From Zwartia panacis (GTDB lineage Bacteria > Pseudomonadota > Gammaproteobacteria > Burkholderiales > Burkholderiaceae_B), in NCBI RefSeq assembly GCF_030410395.1, contig NZ_JAUHHF010000010.1, positions 1-64,000 of the forward strand: a stretch of 64,000 nucleotides of DNA. Direction: 5' to 3'. The position numbers and the translations under genes are program-made. Within the stretch, counting starts at the first letter, position 1; each line of letters starts with the position of its first letter. The notes below the pieces were generated by a model. It was not told the DNA's origin. It saw only the letters and a list, made by a program, of their open reading frames with translations, and did no database searches. Positions 46,555-55,153 of the stretch are shown one piece after another.

Positions 46555-47817
46555 ATGGCAATCGCAACACAGGCGCTGCTTAGGGACGCAATGCGCCGAT
46601 TAAATATGACTCGTGATGCGTTTGCCGAAAGAATCGGCTGCCGGCGTCGCACTCTGGACAGCTGGCTCTTGCCTGACGAATCCAGCGAGTATCGCGCGAT
46701 GCCAGAGGTCGCCCGTCGGTATGTCACTGAGATTTTGGATAATTTGCCTGATAGTCCGCAGAGTGGAGTGGGTGGCTCTGGCTTGTCGGCGAACCATCTG
46801 CTGTCCGTGGATCAGCTGTCTCGCGAGTCGGTCGAGGAGTTGTTCTGGCTGGCCGATGTGATGCAGCCGATCGCCAGGCGTCAAAAAGTCACTCGTGTAC
46901 TCGAAGGCGCTGTATTGGCGAATCTGTTTTTCGAGGCGAGTACCCGTACCCGCATCAGTTTCGGAGCTGCCTTTTGCCGACTGGGCGGATCGGTTTGCGA
47001 CACGACCGGATTTACTTTTTCCTCGATGGCCAAAGGCGAGTCTATTTACGACACCAGCCGTGTGGTGAGTGGCTACGTTGATGCGATGGTGATCCGTCAC
47101 CCTGAAAAGGGTGCCGTCGCCGAGTTTGCGCGCGCCACGAATATCCCTGTGGTGAACGGTGGTGATGGTCCGGGCGAGCACCCGAGCCAGGCTTTGCTTG
47201 ATTTATATACGATCCAGCGCGAATTTTCCCGACTTGGCAAGCTCATCGATGGCGCGCATATCGCGATGGTGGGCGATTTGAAATATGGGCGCACCGTACA
47301 TTCGCTGATCAAGTTGTTGTCCCTCTATCGAGGTTTGACATTCACGCTCATCGCGCCTCAGTCTTTGGAAATGCCTGCAGAGATTGTCGACGTCGTGAGC
47401 CGCAACGGTCATGTTGTCGAGTTCAGTGATTCGCCGGCAAATGGTCTGGCCAAAGCCGATATCTTGTATGCCACGCGTATTCAAAAAGAGCGCTTTGGAG
47501 AGGAAGCGATCGATGGCTATGGCGCCGAGTTTGAAATCAATCAAAAGCTTGTGAATCAGGCGTGCAAGAGTGATGTGGTGATCATGCATCCTTTGCCAAG
47601 AGATGGTCGTCCGGGCTCCTACGATTTGAGCATTGATTTGAACGCGGATCCGCGTCTGGCGATTTTCCGTCAGACGGATAACGGCATTCCGATCCGCATG
47701 GCGATCTTTGCCAAGCTCTTGGGCGTGGACAAGCTCGTGCAACGGTCGATGAAGGATGTCACCTGGGTGACGCCCGCGCACATCGGTCCCGACGACGCGC
47801 TGCCTGATTTCGAATAA
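46555..47817 (+). CDS. pyrB: Aspartate carbamoyltransferase with N-terminal HTH-like extension
   Basis: The enzyme condenses carbamoyl phosphate with aspartate in pyrimidine synthesis. The catalytic part starts near residue 80: the phosphate loop LFFEASTRTRISFG, GGDGPGEHPSQALLDLYTI, AMVGDLKYGRTVHSL and VIMHPLPRDGRPG are all present. At 420 residues it is about 110 longer than E. coli PyrB (311). The first 65 residues (ALLRDAMRRLNMTRDAFAER, then IGCRRRTLDSWLLPDES) read like a phage-repressor-type helix-turn-helix. An AGGTGAG ribosome binding site precedes the ATG. No regulatory chain (PyrI) gene is nearby. The catalytic assignment is firm; DNA binding is inference. Confidence 0.92.
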   Translation: MAIATQALLRDAMRRLNMTRDAFAERIGCRRRTLDSWLLPDESSEYRAMPEVARRYVTEILDNLPDSPQSGVGGSGLSANHLLSVDQLSRESVEELFWLADVMQPIARRQKVTRVLEGAVLANLFFEASTRTRISFGAAFCRLGGSVCDTTGFTFSSMAKGESIYDTSRVVSGYVDAMVIRHPEKGAVAEFARATNIPVVNGGDGPGEHPSQALLDLYTIQREFSRLGKLIDGAHIAMVGDLKYGRTVHSLIKLLSLYRGLTFTLIAPQSLEMPAEIVDVVSRNGHVVEFSDSPANGLAKADILYATRIQKERFGEEAIDGYGAEFEINQKLVNQACKSDVVIMHPLPRDGRPGSYDLSIDLNADPRLAIFRQTDNGIPIRMAIFAKLLGVDKLVQRSMKDVTWVTPAHIGPDDALPDFE

Positions 47818-48711: not shown

Positions 48712-49320
48712 TTAGGTGAGTCGACGGCGTTTTAAAAGAAATGGTACCAGTATGGTCGGTAGCAACATCGCCAGCATATTCCATCCAGGATAGAAAAACG
48801 CCAAGGCAAAGGTTGCCGACGCGCACCACAGTCTGGTCCATACGCCAATCGACAATGCTACCTTGTATGAGGATAGAATCTGATTTTCATGTAGCTCGGT
48901 ACGATTGAGAACGTGCGTTGTTCTGAGTAATGAAAGTGCGGAAATGCCCACCAGATTCAAACTGTAAATCGCTGCGGCCGCGACGTGGTCTCCGTGCTCG
49001 CCGATCAGGGAGGTCGAAAAGGGCAAAAGACTGATGAGTGCGAGCTCTCCAAAAGCAAACCGCACCATCGCATGATCGACGTCTTTGGTGAGTCGGTAAA
49101 GCTTGACTTGCGCGAGCCAGTAAATAGACAACACCCAAAAGCTGAGTAGCCAGGTCAGTAAATTGGGCAACAAACCCTCTAGTGCATTTAAAAAAGCACC
49201 TTCATCACCGCCAAAAGACTGTGATGGTAATTTCAAATCGAGCACGAGTATCGTGAGTGCGACCGCATAAATGCCGTCGGAGAGCGCTTCCAACCGCTGC
49301 TTACTGACTTCGCTCGCCAT
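48712..49320 (-). CDS. TMEM175 (DUF1211) family putative potassium channel
   Basis: The 202-residue protein has six helices and begins with the family motif RLEALSDGIYAVALTILVLDL, equivalent to the FSD pore-lining signature of TMEM175. Bacterial TMEM175 proteins form tetrameric K+-leak channels with a hydrophobic filter of Leu/Ile. The ATG at 49320 has GGAA at a better distance than the one at 49326. It is divergent from the ABC transporter operon. Confidence 0.87.
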   Translation of the reverse strand: MASEVSKQRLEALSDGIYAVALTILVLDLKLPSQSFGGDEGAFLNALEGLLPNLLTWLLSFWVLSIYWLAQVKLYRLTKDVDHAMVRFAFGELALISLLPFSTSLIGEHGDHVAAAAIYSLNLVGISALSLLRTTHVLNRTELHENQILSSYKVALSIGVWTRLWCASATFALAFFYPGWNMLAMLLPTILVPFLLKRRRLT

Positions 49321-49410
49321 ATTCATTTTCCATATGTAAATAAGAAAACAATCGTTTGAGGCTTTATGCCTTTTGGATACGATTTGGTTACATCTTAATA
49401 CTGTTTGGTT

Positions 49411-50274
49411 ATGAATAGCTTATATACAAATTACTCAAAGTTAGTACTGAGCGCACACAATGTGGGCCTGGCTTATGGCGCGGGTCGTCCGCTCATTGCT
49501 GACTTTTCCCTCGCTGTCGAGGCGGGTGAAATTGTGACGGTGCTCGGGCCAAGCGGTATCGGCAAATCGAGTCTGTTACGTGTATTTGCGGGACTGCAGC
49601 CTTCGAATGGAGGTCGGGTATTCGCAGGTGATGAGGAAGTGACGGGTGCGCATCCTCGTGTCGCCATGGCATTTCAAGACCCGAGCTTGCTACCTTGGCT
49701 GACGCTGGAACAAAACGTGGCGTTTGGATTGGATTTCAAGCATCAGCCCAAGCTCAGTGCCAAAGAGCGTCAAGCACGCGTTGATTTGGCGATCCGTGAA
49801 GTAGGACTTGAGCATGCGCGCGAGCTTTACCCGAAGGCGTTATCCGGAGGCATGGCACAACGCACGGCGCTTGCGCGGTGCATCGCTCGGCAGCCGTCGG
49901 TGCTGCTGCTGGATGAACCTTTTGGCGCTCTGGATGAAGTCACACGTGAATCGATGCAGCAATTGCTCTTGCGCGTACGGGATGACTTTGGCACGGCAGC
50001 TGTGCTGATCACGCATGATATTGATGAAGCCCTGCTTGTATCAGACCGAATCGTATTGCTGGGCGGGTCGCCTGCGCATGTGTTTGGTCAGTGGACGCTT
50101 GGACGCTCTCAATCAAGAGACTTGCTTGACCCGATGCTTCAGGCAACACGGGTGGAGATTCTGCAAGCTTTGCGTGGATCAATCGAGGGTAAGAGGACAT
50201 CGCAACCGCCGGCATTTGATTTCAACATATTGCGTCACGCGTACCCGCATCAGGAACTCTCGAATGTGCACTGA
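49411..50274 (+). CDS. ABC transporter ATPase, NitT/TauT/SsuB type
   Basis: The 287-residue ATPase has Walker A GPSGIGKSSL, Q-loop MAFQDPSLLPWLT, signature LSGGMAQR, Walker B VLLLDEPFGALD and H-loop ITHDIDEA. It belongs to the group that energises uptake of nitrate, taurine, sulfonates and other small organic anions. A 40-residue C-terminal tail is unassigned. The ATG at 49411 is preferred to a TTG two codons upstream. It is the first of six tightly packed genes; its stop overlaps the next start by 11 bases. Confidence 0.93.
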   Translation: MNSLYTNYSKLVLSAHNVGLAYGAGRPLIADFSLAVEAGEIVTVLGPSGIGKSSLLRVFAGLQPSNGGRVFAGDEEVTGAHPRVAMAFQDPSLLPWLTLEQNVAFGLDFKHQPKLSAKERQARVDLAIREVGLEHARELYPKALSGGMAQRTALARCIARQPSVLLLDEPFGALDEVTRESMQQLLLRVRDDFGTAAVLITHDIDEALLVSDRIVLLGGSPAHVFGQWTLGRSQSRDLLDPMLQATRVEILQALRGSIEGKRTSQPPAFDFNILRHAYPHQELSNVH

Positions 50275-51463
50275 ATACACCACACGTCGCGATCTGCTTA
50301 AACTCGCGAGTCTGTTTACTGTCGCAGGCGCAGCGCCTTTGCTGTCGGCGGCGAATGCGGTTGCGCAGAGCAACCCGGATCAGCCAGTCAAGATTGGTTA
50401 TCTGCCGATCACTGATGCCGCGCCTTTACTGATCGCCCATCACAATGGCTATTTTCAGGACGCAGGTGTCAAGGTCGAAAAGCCAACATTGTTCCGAAGC
50501 TGGGCGCAGTTGGCGGAGTCTTTCATTGCCGGGCAAACAAACGTCGTGCATCTGTTGTCACCAATGACAGTATGGGCGCGTTTTGGCAGCAAGGTTCCCG
50601 CCAAAGTCGTCGCCTGGAACCATATCAATGGTTCGGCATTGACTGTGGCACCAAAGATTAATCAATTAAAAGACTTGGGCGGCACGACAGTTGCCATTCC
50701 GTTCTGGTATTCGATTCATAACATCGTGCTCCAGGACATGCTGCGCGCTGAGGGGCTCAAACCTGTTGCGCGACGTGTCGGCAAGGTCGAGGCAGACGAA
50801 GTCAGCCTGGTGGTGATGCCGCCTTCGGACATGTTGCCTGCACTTTCTGCCGGAAGTATTTCCGGTTATATCGTGGCGGAGCCATTCAATGCCGCGGCAG
50901 AATTGATGGGCGTGGGTAAAGTGTTGCGCTTTACAGGTGATGTCTGGCGCAATCACGCATGTTGCACAGTGTTCATGCACGAGCGTGATTTAAATGGTCG
51001 TCCTCAGTGGTCTCAGGGTGTTGTTGATGCGATCGTACGCGCACAGCTCTGGATTTTGGAAAACAGAGCCGAGGCCGCAAAAATACTGGCACGTGAAAGC
51101 GGCAAACAATATACACCCCACGGCTTGGCTGCACTCACCAAAGTTCTCGCACCGCCTGCCAGTGACACACAAAGTTATCTGGCCTCGCGCGCTATCCGTC
51201 ACAGTGACTGGAAGGAAGAAAGGATTGGATTTCAGCCCTACCCCTATCCAAGTTACACAGAAGAGCTGGTGACACGCTTGAAAAATACAGCCGTCGAGGC
51301 AGAGCGCGGTTTTTTAACTGATCTAGACCCAGTGTTTGCGGCGAAAGATCTGGTGGATGACCGTTTTGTCAAAAAATCCATCGAAGCAGTCGGCGGATTA
51401 AAGAAATTCGGTGTCGAGGGATCTTATTCGCGCCAAGAAACAATCGACCTGACAAAGGCTTAA
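50264..51463 (+). CDS. ABC transporter substrate-binding protein (NitT/TauT/NMT1-like) with Tat signal
   Basis: The 399-residue protein starts with a twin-arginine signal (TTRRDLLKLASLFTVAGAAP, cleaved near ANAVAQS), then the binding-protein fold: KIGYLPITDAAPLLIAHHNG, LAESFIAGQTNVVHLL, GGTTVAIPFWYS and SGYIVAEPFNAAAE. The family binds nitrate, taurine, sulfonates, bicarbonate or pyrimidine precursors; the ligand is not predictable. Tat export fits ligands or cofactors bound before export. ATG at 50264 lies inside the end of the ATPase gene; an in-frame longer version to 50015 is rejected. Confidence 0.91.
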   Translation: MCTEYTTRRDLLKLASLFTVAGAAPLLSAANAVAQSNPDQPVKIGYLPITDAAPLLIAHHNGYFQDAGVKVEKPTLFRSWAQLAESFIAGQTNVVHLLSPMTVWARFGSKVPAKVVAWNHINGSALTVAPKINQLKDLGGTTVAIPFWYSIHNIVLQDMLRAEGLKPVARRVGKVEADEVSLVVMPPSDMLPALSAGSISGYIVAEPFNAAAELMGVGKVLRFTGDVWRNHACCTVFMHERDLNGRPQWSQGVVDAIVRAQLWILENRAEAAKILARESGKQYTPHGLAALTKVLAPPASDTQSYLASRAIRHSDWKEERIGFQPYPYPSYTEELVTRLKNTAVEAERGFLTDLDPVFAAKDLVDDRFVKKSIEAVGGLKKFGVEGSYSRQETIDLTKA

Positions 51464-51466
51464 GCA

Positions 51467-52222
51467 GTGAGTCTGAAATCCATCCATGCATTGCGTGGCA
51501 TATCTGGCTTGATCTTACTGGTTGCCTTATGGTGGCTCTTGACTGTCCCGTTTTCAGAGGGCACGGGTATGGTGCGCAGGTTCGCGCCCGGTCCTGCTTT
51601 GATCACGCTGGTTGAGATGCTTGGCGGAGCAGAGATCTGGACGCATATCGGTGTCAGTTTGCAGCGTGTATTTGTCGGTCTTGGATTTGCTTTAGTCATC
51701 GGTGTGCCGTTGGGACTGTTGCTGGGAGGATCTGCGCGTCTGAACGCGACGTTCTCTCCGGCATTTCAGTTTTTACGTATGGTCTCGCCTCTGTCATGGA
51801 TGCCGATTGCTGTCATTGCCTTTGGTGTGGGGAATCAACCTGTTTATTTTCTATTGGCTTTTGCCGCAGTGTGGCCAATCATGCTCAATACGATCGCTGG
51901 CGTGCGCGCTCTTGATCCACGTTGGTTGCAACTCTCCAAGAGTTTGGCCGCGACGAAATGGGAAACTTTGCGCGGAGTGATCTTGCCTGGCGTGCTCGGT
52001 CATGTACTGACCGGCGCACGTTTGGCGATTGGAATTGTGTGGATCGTGTTGGTGCCGTGTGAAATGCTCGGCGTCACAGCGGGCTTGGGATATTTCATTC
52101 TGGATACGCGAGATCGACTGGCGTATCACGAATTGATGGCGACGATCGTTTTGATCGGAATACTCGGATTTATTCTCGACTGGATTTTCAGAGAAGTTTG
52201 TCAATTATGGAGCAAGGCATGA
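51467..52222 (+). CDS. ABC transporter permease (BPD_transp_1, SsuC/TauC type)
   Basis: The 251-residue permease has six helices and the EAA-type coupling loop near QLSKSLAATKWETLRGVILPG, read in two parts. It follows the binding-protein gene by 3 bases, starts with GTG, and its TGA overlaps the next start (ATGA). It completes an importer with the ATPase and the binding protein. Confidence 0.92.
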   Translation: MSLKSIHALRGISGLILLVALWWLLTVPFSEGTGMVRRFAPGPALITLVEMLGGAEIWTHIGVSLQRVFVGLGFALVIGVPLGLLLGGSARLNATFSPAFQFLRMVSPLSWMPIAVIAFGVGNQPVYFLLAFAAVWPIMLNTIAGVRALDPRWLQLSKSLAATKWETLRGVILPGVLGHVLTGARLAIGIVWIVLVPCEMLGVTAGLGYFILDTRDRLAYHELMATIVLIGILGFILDWIFREVCQLWSKA

Positions 52223-52770
52223 GCAATACACAGCAAGCAGAAACAGTGAACGTTTATCTGCGTCCGATCGATGCAGCCGGTCTCGCCGCATTTGCTGAAA
52301 AAGGGCGAGCAAATCCCGCCTCAAAGGGAACCAACAAAGTTCATACCGTTCTGGAGGGTCAGTACAGATCTTTGAACTATGTGGGTGATCATGAGCCTGT
52401 GATTGTCGACGAGCCTTTGCATTTGTTTGGTCAAAATACAGCGCCAGCACCGGGCGAAATCGTCCTCTCGGGTTTAGGTGGTTGCTTGGCGGTAGGTATA
52501 CAGGCAGTCGCCACCTGGAAACAAGTCAAGCTCACGAAGCTTGAGATTTTTCTGGAGGGTGATATTGGTAATTCAGCCGCGTGGGGTGCCGGAGGCGCCT
52601 TGGACAAACAGCCTGCACAGATGGGCTTTCAGGCCGTACGCGTCAAGGTCAATGTAGAGGGCGATGCTTCGCAGGAAGTTCTCGATGAAATCGTCAAGCA
52701 TGCCAATTATTACTCACCTGTGGCGAACAGTATTCGCAATCCGATTCCCTTTGAAATCACGACCGCTTAG
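52219..52770 (+). CDS. OsmC family protein lacking the second redox Cys
   Basis: OsmC/Ohr proteins reduce organic peroxides with a Cys pair. The 183-residue protein keeps the fold and the first Cys (C89 in LSGLGGCLAVGIQAVA), but where the second Cys (in a CP motif) should be it has HANYYSPVANS. It also has Gly-rich and Lys-rich insertions. It may therefore bind ligands or act as a one-Cys enzyme rather than a normal peroxidase. ATG at 52219 overlaps the permease stop and has GGAG. Its location in the operon suggests protection against, or chemistry on, a product of the neighbouring flavoenzyme. Confidence 0.85.
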   Translation: MSNTQQAETVNVYLRPIDAAGLAAFAEKGRANPASKGTNKVHTVLEGQYRSLNYVGDHEPVIVDEPLHLFGQNTAPAPGEIVLSGLGGCLAVGIQAVATWKQVKLTKLEIFLEGDIGNSAAWGAGGALDKQPAQMGFQAVRVKVNVEGDASQEVLDEIVKHANYYSPVANSIRNPIPFEITTA

Positions 52771-52784
52771 TCAGAGACATTGAC

Positions 52785-53903
52785 ATGAAACCGTTCGAGG
52801 CAGGCAAAGAATCTTTAATTGGGATGGTGCGTACGATCGCGCAGAATGAATTGGCGCAATCCGTGCAGGCTATTGACCAACAGGGCCTCTATCCGGAGGC
52901 TGTTCTGCGTCAGCTCGCGGCCGCAGGTGGGATGAGTGCGCATCTTAGAGCTCCTCACGGTTTCAATGACTTTGGTTTGGCGATACAGTCGATTGCAGAA
53001 GTGGCTCGTGTCTGTGGCTCGACGGGTTTCATGATGTGGTGTCAGGCGGTTTGCGGTCTTTACATGCAAGAGGCTTCATCGACTGTACTGCAGGGTGCGC
53101 CGCTTTTGTCGCATGTTTCAGGTGAGCGCCTGGGTGGCACGGCATTATCGAATCCGATGAAAACCTACGCCAAGATTGAATCCTTCATGCTCAAGGCTGT
53201 ACCTGCCGATGGCGGGTACAGGGTGACAGGAAGCTTGCCTTGGGTCAGCAACCTCGGACCTGACCATTATTGTGGCGCGATTGCTTCAATCGCGGATGAA
53301 AGTGGATCACGCGAGCTGATGTTCTTGCTTCGCTGCGATGCCGCAGGTGTGACCCTGAGAGAGTGTCCCAGCTTTTCCGGGATGGAGGGCACAGGGACTT
53401 ATGCATTGCATCTCAATGACTGTTTTGTGTCCCCGGATGACGTGATCGCAGACCCCGCCAGACCCTTGATTAAAAAAATCAGAGCAGCATTTGTCATGTT
53501 GCAGTGTGGCATGGCGGCTGGAGTCATACAAGGTGCGATTGACTCGATGTGGGCGGTTGAAGATCAACTGGGACATGTGAACTGTTATCTTGAAGATAGA
53601 CCGCAGGACTTGCAGAGTGAGCTCGATGAATTGTTGGCTCGAATCATGCGGCTTGCAGAGACCCCTTATGACGACAGTGACGCATTTTTCATTCAAGTCC
53701 TGGATGCGCGCGCCCATGGTGCGGAATTGAGCCTCAGGGCTGCGCAGTCTGCGTTGTTGCATCAGGGCGCGCGGGGCTATCTCATGAGCTCTGAAGTACA
53801 GCGTCGTGTGCGTGAATCTCATTTCGTCGCGATTGTCACACCTGCGATCAAGCATTTGCGCAGTGAAATGGCCAGACTGAGTCAGGAGACGATGCCGGCA
53901 TGA
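52785..53903 (+). CDS. Acyl-CoA-dehydrogenase-fold flavoprotein without the C-terminal Glu motif
   Basis: The 372-residue protein has the ACAD fold: N-terminal helices, a middle beta-barrel (TGSLPWVSNLGPDHYCGAIA, FSGMEGTGTYALHLNDCFV) and a C-terminal helix bundle (SLRAAQSALLHQGARGYLMS). The usual C-terminal (Y/I)EGT segment, with catalytic Glu in several dehydrogenases, is replaced by HFVAIVTPAIKHLRSE. That pattern is closer to ACAD-related, FMNH2-using monooxygenases (DszC/SfnC-like), so an oxygenase role is possible. It lies 14 bases after osmC and overlaps the rubredoxin-reductase gene by 4 bases (ATGA). Confidence 0.85.
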   Translation: MKPFEAGKESLIGMVRTIAQNELAQSVQAIDQQGLYPEAVLRQLAAAGGMSAHLRAPHGFNDFGLAIQSIAEVARVCGSTGFMMWCQAVCGLYMQEASSTVLQGAPLLSHVSGERLGGTALSNPMKTYAKIESFMLKAVPADGGYRVTGSLPWVSNLGPDHYCGAIASIADESGSRELMFLLRCDAAGVTLRECPSFSGMEGTGTYALHLNDCFVSPDDVIADPARPLIKKIRAAFVMLQCGMAAGVIQGAIDSMWAVEDQLGHVNCYLEDRPQDLQSELDELLARIMRLAETPYDDSDAFFIQVLDARAHGAELSLRAAQSALLHQGARGYLMSSEVQRRVRESHFVAIVTPAIKHLRSEMARLSQETMPA

Positions 53904-55153
53904 GTACGCAAGAAGCCTGGAGAGAATATCTCTGTCATGCCTGTGGCTATGTTTATCGTGAGCGTGACGGCGATGTGGATAGCGGCTTGGCGCCAGGTAC
54001 GCGTTTCGAGGATATTCCCGAGGATTGGTACTGCCCGATATGCGGAGTGACCAAAGCGGATTTCGTGTTGGTGGAGCAACGACAGACCCTTCCATCCGAA
54101 TCAAAAAAGCGTCTTGAAATCAGTTTTGTAAAGGGCTCTCGTCCTGGTGTCAGATCGAATGTTCGTCATTTTGATGTTGTGATCGTAGGGGGCGGCACTG
54201 CTGCCTGGAAGGCTGTTGAATCATTGCGTAGCTTGTCAGAGAAGCATTCAATCGCGATGATTTCTCAATGCGAAGCCAATCGATACGATAAACCGCTTTT
54301 ATCTGTTGCGATGGCACGAAATTTTTCCTTGTCTGAATTGGTCAAGGAAACGGGTATGGATGCAGCAAAAAGATTCAACGTTTCACTTTTTTCCAAGACA
54401 ATGGCTATTAGTGTGAATCCATCCAGACATATTGTCCGGACAACACTGGGCAGTGTGCACTATAAACAGCTGATCATTGCCCAGGGCGCTCAGTCTGTCT
54501 TGCCCGAGCACTTGCCTGCCGAGTATTGCTGGCGCATCAATCATTTGAGTCAGTATGTCCGATTTCGCGAGTCATTGGGTGCCCATTCGAGCCGTGTGCT
54601 GGTGATCGGAGCAGGACTCATTGGTTCAGAGCTCTCTAATGATCTGGCTTTGGGTGGGCATTCGGTCACGCTGATTGATGTCGCGCGCAGACCGCTTGAG
54701 CGTTTGTTGACTGAGTCTCAGCGCTCTGAGGCGTTGTTGAAAGCCTGGGAATGTTTGCCAATCCAGTTCTTTGGTAATACCCAAGTATCAGAGGTTAAAA
54801 AATCTCTATCGGGCGACTTGAACGTCAAGATGAGTGACGGCCAAACGTTATGCGTGGATACGATCGTTGTGGCAGCCGGTTTAAAAACGTGTGATCGCCT
54901 GGCTCGCAGTGCAGGTCTGGCGTGGAACAACGGCATTGTTGTGGATCCTGTTTCTCTTGAGGCAAGCGTCTCAGATATTTATGCTCTCGGTGATTGTGTC
55001 TCGATCGGTGGGGAAACATGCCGCTATATTGAACCGATCGCACGACAAGCCACGACCATTGCGAGTCAGATTATTGGAGACACGTTGATCCCTTACGCGA
55101 ATCAGCGTGTACCTGTACGGATCAAGACGACTTCGTTACCGATGACGATCTAA
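53900..55153 (+). CDS. Rubredoxin domain fused to FAD/NAD(P)-dependent rubredoxin reductase
   Basis: The 417-residue protein begins with a complete rubredoxin: iron ligands C12, C15, C45 and C48 (LCHACGYVY and YCPICGV) with the GDVDSGLAPGT loop. From residue 91 follows a pyridine-nucleotide oxidoreductase: FAD motif FDVVIVGGGTAAWKAVESLR, NAD(P) motif VLVIGAGLIGSELSNDLALG (233-252) and the second FAD motif DIYALGDC. Separate rubredoxin and reductase feed AlkB-type oxygenases in alkane degraders; here they form one electron-transfer chain in a single protein. The probable electron acceptor is the ACAD-like flavoprotein encoded just before, but that is inference. Confidence 0.92.
   Translation: MSTQEAWREYLCHACGYVYRERDGDVDSGLAPGTRFEDIPEDWYCPICGVTKADFVLVEQRQTLPSESKKRLEISFVKGSRPGVRSNVRHFDVVIVGGGTAAWKAVESLRSLSEKHSIAMISQCEANRYDKPLLSVAMARNFSLSELVKETGMDAAKRFNVSLFSKTMAISVNPSRHIVRTTLGSVHYKQLIIAQGAQSVLPEHLPAEYCWRINHLSQYVRFRESLGAHSSRVLVIGAGLIGSELSNDLALGGHSVTLIDVARRPLERLLTESQRSEALLKAWECLPIQFFGNTQVSEVKKSLSGDLNVKMSDGQTLCVDTIVVAAGLKTCDRLARSAGLAWNNGIVVDPVSLEASVSDIYALGDCVSIGGETCRYIEPIARQATTIASQIIGDTLIPYANQRVPVRIKTTSLPMTI

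Follow-up and report, generated by a model that had tools for sequence, protein, structure and literature searches.

A six-gene operon of Zwartia panacis is likely to be a thiocyanate-utilisation unit, in which an NrtA-like importer, an ACAD-fold flavoprotein, a rubredoxin fused to its reductase, and an OsmC-family thiol protein would cooperate. Thiocyanate arises in natural and industrial processes, for example in gold-mine and coking effluents. Its use as a nitrogen source has been reported for heterotrophs, and the enzymes named for thiocyanate in the excerpts of the literature considered here are one hydrolase and one copper dehydrogenase, both from sulfur-oxidising specialists. If our assignment is true, the operon would offer a route from thiocyanate to cyanate distinct from both known bacterial ways of breakdown, and a thiocyanate enzyme for ordinary aerobes with marker genes for surveys. 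It would also add an oxygenase of the ACAD fold that draws its electrons from an iron protein, and hint at what an ACAD-importer block of a well-studied cyanobacterial plasmid does.

Layout and conservation of the operon

The six ORFs lie on the + strand of the window, i.e. the whole stretch of 64,000 nucleotides that was analysed, and an ORF check of its sequence found all frames intact. The features are:

49411..50274, +, ABC transporter ATP-binding subunit (NitT/TauT, nitrate-importer-like; Pfam ABC_tran)
50264..51463, +, substrate-binding protein, NrtA-like, with the Tat-type signal TTRRDLLK (NMT1_2)
51467..52222, +, ABC transporter permease (Pfam BPD_transp_1)
52219..52770, +, OsmC-family protein with one conserved Cys (Pfam OsmC)
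52483..52485, +, codon of the sole conserved OsmC cysteine (Cys column in relatives)
52785..53903, +, ACAD-fold flavoprotein, proposed thiocyanate-oxidising monooxygenase (Pfam Acyl-CoA_dh_N)
53838..53840, +, codon of Thr352, at the usual ACAD catalytic Glu position (alignments)
53900..55153, +, rubredoxin fused to a NorW-like NADH:rubredoxin reductase (Pfam Rubredoxin and Pyr_redox_2)
53927..54064, +, rubredoxin domain, CxxCG ... CPxCG (Pfam Rubredoxin)

The ATPase gene starts with ATG 49411 (TTG 49405 is a possible alternative) and overlaps by 11 bases with the gene of the binding protein, whose sequence opens MCTEYTTRRDLLK...; a gap of 3 bases leads to the permease gene, which overlaps the OsmC gene by 4 bases. 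The ACAD-like gene follows after a gap of 14 bases and overlaps the rubredoxin-reductase gene by 4 bases. An earlier note on this DNA had described six tightly packed genes with overlaps or gaps of at most 14 bases, a full NitT/TauT-type importer with a Tat-type binding protein, and a rubredoxin-reductase fusion; the coordinates hold, and the Pfam matches listed above agree with both assignments.

All six genes occur in the same order in three close relatives (L004, L005 (Zwartia vadi), and L069), and because these keep the complete order, the set is not due to chance. In the ACAD scan, an OsmC or AhpD-family gene adjoins the ACAD gene in 78 of 80 loci; in the remaining two (L013 and L056) the contig stops at that point. 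The set, whose lack of conservation would have counted against the earlier note, is thus conserved. In 79 of the 80 loci, a single ORF carries both a rubredoxin motif and a long stretch of reductase, and at L066 the ORF has the rubredoxin motif and extends past the contig end. Among 33 drawn loci, 26 carry a rubredoxin, fused or separate; none was detected above the filter in the other seven, two of which (L148, L152) lie on cut contigs. The conserved core consists of a small thiol protein, followed by the ACAD-fold flavoprotein and rubredoxin.

Flavoprotein, electron supply and thiol protein

The flavoprotein is predicted to adopt the ACAD fold: a PDB search with its AlphaFold2 model (pLDDT 88) ranked ACADs first, with a TM value of about 0.84 to short-chain ACADs, a result compatible with both an ACAD and an ACAD-fold monooxygenase. 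The best score with NCBIfam acyl-CoA dehydrogenase models was 47.3 bits at a cut-off of 650; for the monooxygenase models SfnB and HsaA it was 21.9 (cut-off 430.9) and 20.2 bits (cut-off 450), and the DszC model was matched by one relative only (25.8 bits, cut-off 850). Threonine occupies the position of the catalytic glutamate in 91 of 93 family members. The (Y/I)EGT motif, which the earlier note had reported missing, is indeed lost, as YEGT aligns with V-T-P-A in the window protein. To the extent covered by family scores and the active-site alignment, a firm grouping with ETF-using ACADs, named in the earlier note as a refuting outcome, did not emerge. DszC, HsaA, and SfnB represent families of ACAD-fold flavin monooxygenases and have the fold in common with the window protein; however, they depend on a free flavin reductase, whereas the window offers an adjoining rubredoxin, and the matches are far below the NCBIfam cut-offs. 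Sequence and gene linkage make rubredoxin the probable electron donor of the ACAD-fold protein, as had been proposed before. The best NCBIfam match of the reductase is NorW, under the cut-off.

Two-cysteine OsmC/Ohr peroxidases possess a second functional cysteine. In an alignment of 104 relatives of the OsmC-like protein, the column of the first cysteine is occupied by Cys in all 104, every other column contains Cys in at most 10, and no conserved column for a second cysteine exists, in agreement with the absence noted earlier. In other loci, OsmC is exchanged for AhpD- or SCO4226-like thiol proteins. This replacement, in combination with the invariant cysteine, suggests a thiol capture step, and the protein may handle a reactive sulfur product, which is in line with the role assigned to it in the earlier note. 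On a tree of 93 out of 143 ACADs (from 146; length at least 338 aa) the OsmC and AhpD labels were grouped, yet exchanged 5 to 7 times (root not used).

Importer family and neighbouring genes

The binding protein reached 165.8 bits with NMT1_2 (gathering score 24.7) and is accompanied by a permease and an ATPase (best NCBIfam match ntrCD, under the cut-off), which indicates an NrtA-like small-anion importer. Its solved relatives include NrtA and CmpC, and most of them are nitrate or bicarbonate transport components. The family is rare, as it was found in 14 of 399 genomes of the host's order (E<=1e-60); ten of these loci carry an ACAD of the window's family, and four are thiocyanate hydrolase (scnABC) clusters. 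A draw of 398 genomes of the host's phylum (E<=1e-50) added 12 loci, and among the pooled 26 loci the binding protein is encoded 20 times beside a same-family ACAD, four times inside scnABC clusters, and twice beside hybrid sensor kinases. From 46 matched plasmid records, 16 loci were examined, of which 14 were obtained via the binding protein and two via the ACAD; all 16 possess the ACAD.

The scn gamma subunits of all four importer-linked clusters score above the TIGR03887 cut-off, and that of one cluster matches PDB 2dd4 with an E-value of 3.5e-160. In the host genome, the best match of this subunit reaches 218 bits, below the cut-off of 291. Like the window, Thiobacillus scnABC clusters have a NitT/TauT importer; in four of the seven clusters seen, the binding protein is of the window's family, and the other three show no such importer. 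Identity between the window's binding protein and the scnABC-linked ones is 46-47 percent, and the latter form a sister set to the window's clade on a tree of 82 out of 109 sequences (from 112; length at least 360 aa), where the set containing the window protein has weak SH-aLRT support (97/63). A shift in specificity could separate the two.

Many ACAD relatives adjoin genes for a cyanase, a two-domain rhodanese, and a sigma-54 regulator. Within the fetched stretches, cyanase occurs in 40 of 80 loci of the ACAD scan and in 11 of 33 drawn loci; for the rhodanese, the numbers are 49 of 80 and 6 of 33. Importer, OsmC, ACAD, electron-transfer protein, and cyanase are united at one locus in L205 and L084. 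On the level of genomes, cyanase was found in 19 of 33 with the ACAD vs 71 of the remaining 366 (Fisher p 5e-6, a value that ignores kinship). A -24/-12 (sigma-54) element precedes 82 of 94 OsmC-type loci vs 0 of 15 AhpD-type loci (shuffle rate 0.35 percent), although many of the loci counted are closely related to one another. The window operon contains neither cyanase nor rhodanese, and sigma-54 control of it was rejected, as the 300 bases upstream hold no such element. Elsewhere in the host genome, a separate cynABDS-like cluster combines cyanase with a sigma-54 promoter element.

Many OsmC-type relatives adjoin a CynABD-like importer, cyanase, a sigma-54/GAF regulator, and a -24/-12 element, features shared with the cynFABDS cyanate-utilisation cluster; none of these four elements belongs to the window operon. 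Cyanase is absent from all 11 AhpD-type genomes and from three of 21 OsmC-type genomes, whose locus in two cases (L125, L127) includes a CynA-like importer. A Moraxella locus of the AhpD type likewise has a CynA-like importer, with no cyanase nearby. Genomes without cyanase count against the thiocyanate reading, which does not account for their cyanate, as does the lack of both cyanase and rhodanese in the window operon.

Proposed route, alternatives and known systems

The evidence on the substrate is gene context throughout, and it points to thiocyanate as the probable one. Uptake of a small compound, as postulated in the earlier note, stands; the cargo, organic in that note, is probably an inorganic anion. 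The gene set, its conservation and neighbourhoods, the loss of the usual ACAD base, and the single cysteine can be read from the sequences; direction of electron flow, chemistry, and the role of OsmC are what the thiocyanate reading suggests. In this reading, SCN- would be imported by the NrtA-like ABC importer, and electrons of NADH would pass via the reductase part and the fused rubredoxin to the ACAD-fold protein. Its flavin, once reduced, would activate O2 and oxygenate thiocyanate at the sulfur, probably to hypothiocyanite. This reactive product would be captured by the single OsmC cysteine; hydrolysis would release cyanate and leave a persulfide on OsmC, the sulfur of which would be handed on, perhaps to the rhodanese adjoining in many relatives. 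Cyanate would be removed by cyanase, supplied in the host by the separate cynABDS-like cluster.

A broader proposal, for which we see somewhat less than an even chance, is a third thiocyanate enzyme system. Its O2-dependent flavin monooxygenase of the ACAD fold would receive electrons from rubredoxin or ferredoxin, and the thiol protein that takes the sulfur as persulfide would be interchangeable (OsmC, AhpD-like, or SCO4226-like). As part of the same tentative proposal, the system would come in two physiological variants, one scavenging nitrogen (OsmC, sigma-54, cyanase) and one scavenging sulfur (AhpD- or SCO4226-like, without cyanase), and would span Proteobacteria as well as cyanobacteria, Deinococcus, Thermomicrobium, and an actinobacterium. 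The earlier note knew of no characterised pathway with the same set, and text searches of an open-licence library found none matching.

Cyanase and rhodanese among the neighbours would also suit a cyanide monooxygenase, i.e. a flavoprotein oxidising HCN to cyanate, for which both enzymes would act as the classical sinks. Since HCN crosses membranes, it should require no importer; yet the importer is a constant partner across phyla and is shared with thiocyanate hydrolase clusters, and the sulfur-gene setting on the plasmid pANL (see below) is left unexplained. We therefore regard this reading as unlikely, even though a cyanide monooxygenase yielding cyanate is listed in the part of a review available to us. 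Scavenging of sulfonates or similar organosulfur compounds, by an S-oxygenating or desulfonating ACAD of the SfnB/DszC kind and an organic-sulfur importer, appears improbable as well: a flavin monooxygenase and sulfur genes are close to some relatives, and besides the weak SfnB match of the ACAD there is one of the binding protein to SsuA_fam (94 bits, cut-off 163.5), but cyanase, sigma-54 regulator, and the scnABC link would have no explanation, and the solved binding-protein relatives mostly serve nitrate or bicarbonate.

The flavoprotein might instead take electrons from thiocyanate and pass them to rubredoxin, with the reductase working in reverse towards NAD+. According to the literature excerpts, the copper enzyme TcDH turns SCN- into cyanate and sulfur and passes the electrons to cytochrome c. 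Donation to cytochrome c, however, suggests that the potential is too high for NAD+, and the reductase resembles NADH:rubredoxin reductases, which makes this direction very improbable. We give equally little credence to a genuine role in acyl-CoA or acyl-thioester metabolism, next to an importer that serves another purpose. It would fit the predicted fold and the fatty-acid or acyl-CoA genes near two relatives (L088 and L195). Moreover, 7p98, a solved cyclohexenecarboxyl-CoA dehydrogenase, likewise has threonine at the glutamate position, so that the missing glutamate alone does not exclude acyl-CoA chemistry. However, Val89 of the window protein aligns with Asp91 of 7p98, the base of that enzyme; the usual glutamate is missing family-wide, the NCBIfam scores are low, and the pairing of the ACAD with an anion importer is conserved. 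Finally, the Sao (Sec-assisted organometallic) system was rejected. SaoX, SaoP, SaoA, and OsmC_like_Se rank with the better NCBIfam matches, all of them under the cut-off, and Sao is a selenoprotein operon according to the accessible part of a review; the matches were thus taken as distant importer kinship.

Returning to thiocyanate, the scnABC enzyme is a nitrile-hydratase-like hydrolase forming COS and ammonia, whereas the window encodes an unrelated ACAD-fold flavoprotein. In the portion of PMC5328954 that we drew on, a cyanase gene and sulfur carriers are located near scnABC clusters. For TcDH of Thioalkalivibrio, the excerpted source proposes cyanate and zero-valent sulfur as products, as we do for the window operon; TcDH donates to cytochrome c, whereas the window flavoprotein would accept from rubredoxin.

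A Synechococcus cysR mutant reportedly fails on thiocyanate. The plasmid pANL of S. elongatus PCC 7942 carries a block with a same-family ACAD and importer in the order ACAD-ATPase-binding protein-permease, for which the literature excerpts at hand state no thiocyanate function; its ACAD gene is SYNPCC7942_RS13440. It differs from the window in having an SCO4226-like thiol protein in place of OsmC and no rubredoxin match in the stretch. On pANL, the SCO4226-like protein, the ACAD, and the importer are encoded near cysteine-synthesis and encapsulin genes.

Operon layout and its conservation in other genomes

The tight packing of six genes described in the earlier note was borne out: none of the six reading frames is interrupted, and neighbouring genes either overlap (by 11, 4 and 4 bases) or are separated by 3 or 14 bases. 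The operon and two features upstream of it are:

46555-47817: aspartate carbamoyltransferase-like reading frame with an extra N-terminal helix-turn-helix-like stretch (judged by eye)
48712-49326, - strand: gene for a TMEM175-family potassium channel, oriented away from the operon and also found upstream of it in Zwartia vadi (L005)
49411-55153, + strand: six genes, first three for an importer (NitT/TauT-type ATPase, binding protein with twin-arginine signal, permease), then those for an OsmC-family protein, an ACAD-fold protein and a rubredoxin with a NorW-like reductase fused to it

The fusion of rubredoxin and reductase in one gene is as previously claimed, and the identical order of six genes is kept in three relatives' loci (L004, L005 from Zwartia vadi, and L069). 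When a named genome collection was scanned with the ACAD, 117 stretches were confirmed. Among the best 80 of these 117 loci, the gene adjacent to the ACAD encodes an OsmC protein in 74 and an AhpD/CMD-family protein in four, while two end at a contig border. As to the proposed check of co-occurrence of the ACAD-like and rubredoxin-reductase genes, 79 of these 80 loci have a single reading frame that contains both a rubredoxin motif and a long reductase stretch, the exception being L066, where the frame runs off the contig. A pirin-like gene, recognized by eye, lies downstream of the operon at many Hydrogenophaga loci (L009, L012, L024, L026, L030, L050 and others). The contig of L051 is titled Akkermansia muciniphila; its ACAD clusters with that of Limnohabitans L083 (support 100/100, in a tree with poor outgroups), and the contig is probably mislabelled.

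With Zwartia vadi as the nearest relative that has a name, the order is assumed to be Burkholderiales. Of 399 genomes drawn evenly from this order, 33 possess the ACAD at E<=1e-60; this number is a lower bound, because in four further genomes of the draw a more divergent ACAD adjoins the importer. At the 33 drawn loci, OsmC is adjacent in 21 and AhpD/CMD in ten; AhpD/CMD is nearby in one (L152), and one locus is cut (L148). Rubredoxin was found at 26 of the 33 loci, as seven long fusions and 19 stand-alone proteins, all 19 of which have two CxxC motifs; at the other seven none passed the filter. A DUF302 gene lies between the ACAD and a stand-alone rubredoxin at ten drawn loci (L131, L139-L141, L143, L145-L147, L149, L151). 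Near one OsmC-ACAD-importer locus, a cysteine-dioxygenase domain is fused to an FAD-NAD(P)-binding domain according to Pfam (L204:12299-14227).

The importer and its link to thiocyanate hydrolase

The binding protein of the window has matches at E<=1e-60 in 14 of the 399 genomes of the order. Ten of these 14 loci contain an ACAD of the window's family, and four lie inside scnABC clusters, which encode thiocyanate hydrolase. The gamma subunits of all four clusters exceed the TIGR03887 cut-off (two were also scanned against NCBIfam), and one of them matches the solved thiocyanate hydrolase 2dd4 with E 3.5e-160. Conversely, seven of the 399 genomes have a hydrolase gamma subunit above the cut-off. 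None of these is among the 33 ACAD genomes, and four possess an importer of the window's family; in the remaining three, the importer queries had no match in the stretch read. A draw of 398 genomes from the phylum (E<=1e-50) gave binding protein matches in 17 genomes and added 12 new loci, with an ACAD beside ten and hybrid histidine kinases beside two. Of 46 matching plasmid records, 16 loci were read (14 found via the binding protein, two via the ACAD), the others being mostly repeats of the same genera; the ACAD is present at all 16.

In a midpoint-rooted tree of 82 binding proteins, 36 CynA-like sequences are split from the other 46. The latter comprise a set of 33 that includes the window's protein (support 97/63, weak) and a set of 13 (98/96) consisting of four scnABC-linked, seven OsmC-ACAD-linked and two kinase-linked proteins; the scnABC-linked proteins are thus sisters of the window's set. 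Solved relatives of the window's binding protein are mostly components of nitrate or bicarbonate transport. The earlier note had suggested uptake of a small organic compound; gene context points instead to a small inorganic anion, with thiocyanate as the simplest reading of what the importer carries. Cyanate is probably not its substrate, as the window's genome has a separate cynABDS-like cluster, whose binding protein is only about 28 percent identical to that of the window, which makes the importer of the window a second one.

At the two kinase-linked loci (L206:4195-9254 and L208:4175-9155), where the binding protein adjoins a hybrid kinase with GAF, HAMP, HisKA, HATPase and response regulator domains, the permease queries had no match in the stretch. 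Binding protein and kinase could possibly act there as sensors for the same anion.

The ACAD-fold enzyme, thiol proteins and a proposed scheme

The nearest matches of the structure model of the window's ACAD (pLDDT 88) are acyl-CoA dehydrogenases, with 16-21 percent identity among the 50 matches listed. The C-terminal (Y/I)EGT motif is indeed missing: in alignments reaching it, V-T-P-A stands opposite Y-E-G-T, placing Thr352 at the usual catalytic glutamate. This position is threonine in 91 of 93 family members, and the following proline, as well as Trp85, Trp153, Arg343, Glu344 and Phe347, is invariant in all 93. Cyclohexenecarboxyl-CoA dehydrogenase (7p98) also has threonine at this position, which counts against an argument from glutamate loss; however, Asp91 of 7p98, which we take to be the catalytic base of that enzyme, is aligned with Val89 of the window's protein. 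From the sequence, an acyl-CoA dehydrogenase reaction is therefore considered unlikely.

The OsmC protein has a single cysteine column, occupied in 104 of 104 relatives, in agreement with the reported lack of a second cysteine. The AhpD-type replacement keeps CxxC and a following histidine (29/29), and the SCO4226-like replacement two cysteines (4/4). That three different thiol-protein families take the same place suggests that these loci require thiol chemistry.

Hypothiocyanite is reactive towards thiols. In the scheme that we consider probable, electrons would pass from NADH via reductase and rubredoxin to the flavin, and the reduced flavin and O2 would oxygenate SCN- at sulfur. The product would be taken by the OsmC cysteine, and hydrolysis would then yield cyanate and a persulfide, whose sulfur may be passed to rhodanese or other carriers, the cyanate being consumed by cyanase. 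Uptake and cyanate formation are proposed because of gene linkage, the flavin and thiol steps because of the reactivity of hypothiocyanite. A text search of an open-licence library gave no joint mention of 'thiocyanate degradation' and 'acyl-CoA dehydrogenase'; for thiocyanate, rubredoxin and cyanate together it gave a single paper, which deals with picocyanobacterial ecology.

Cyanase, rhodanese and the sulfur setting

Of the best 80 of the 117 loci, 40 have cyanase within the fetched stretch, 49 a two-domain rhodanese and 55 a sigma-54 activator that contains a GAF domain; the corresponding numbers for the 33 drawn loci are 11, 6 and 15. Genome-wide, cyanase occurs in 19 of the 33 ACAD genomes versus 71 of the 366 others (Fisher p 5e-6, uncorrected for kinship). 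It is found in 18 of 21 OsmC-type genomes, the other three having none, in the genome with the cut locus, and in none of the 11 AhpD-type genomes. A sigma-54 promoter element (-24/-12) lies ahead of the first gene at 82 of 94 OsmC-type and 0 of 15 AhpD-type loci, which are not independent of each other; the background in shuffles is about 0.35 percent. A motif search found no such element upstream of the window's operon and those of three close relatives; in the genome's cynABDS-like cluster, which contains its cyanase, one lies 55 bases before the binding-protein gene.

A Marinobacter plasmid (L084) and a locus from another class of the phylum (L205) combine importer, OsmC and ACAD with cyanase and a protein for electron transfer; in L205 the place of the rubredoxin fusion is taken by a 2Fe-2S ferredoxin, together with a weak match to a reductase. 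A related block on plasmid pANL of Synechococcus elongatus PCC 7942 (L187:9531-13990) encodes an SCO4226-like protein, ACAD, ATPase, binding protein and permease. According to PMC8049743, pANL encodes many sulfur-related genes, and sulfur starvation induces SrpI. The thiocyanate reading would provide a candidate function for the ACAD-importer part of this well-known plasmid, where two cysteine synthases, a serine acetyltransferase and the SrpI encapsulin with its cysteine desulfurase are encoded near the block.
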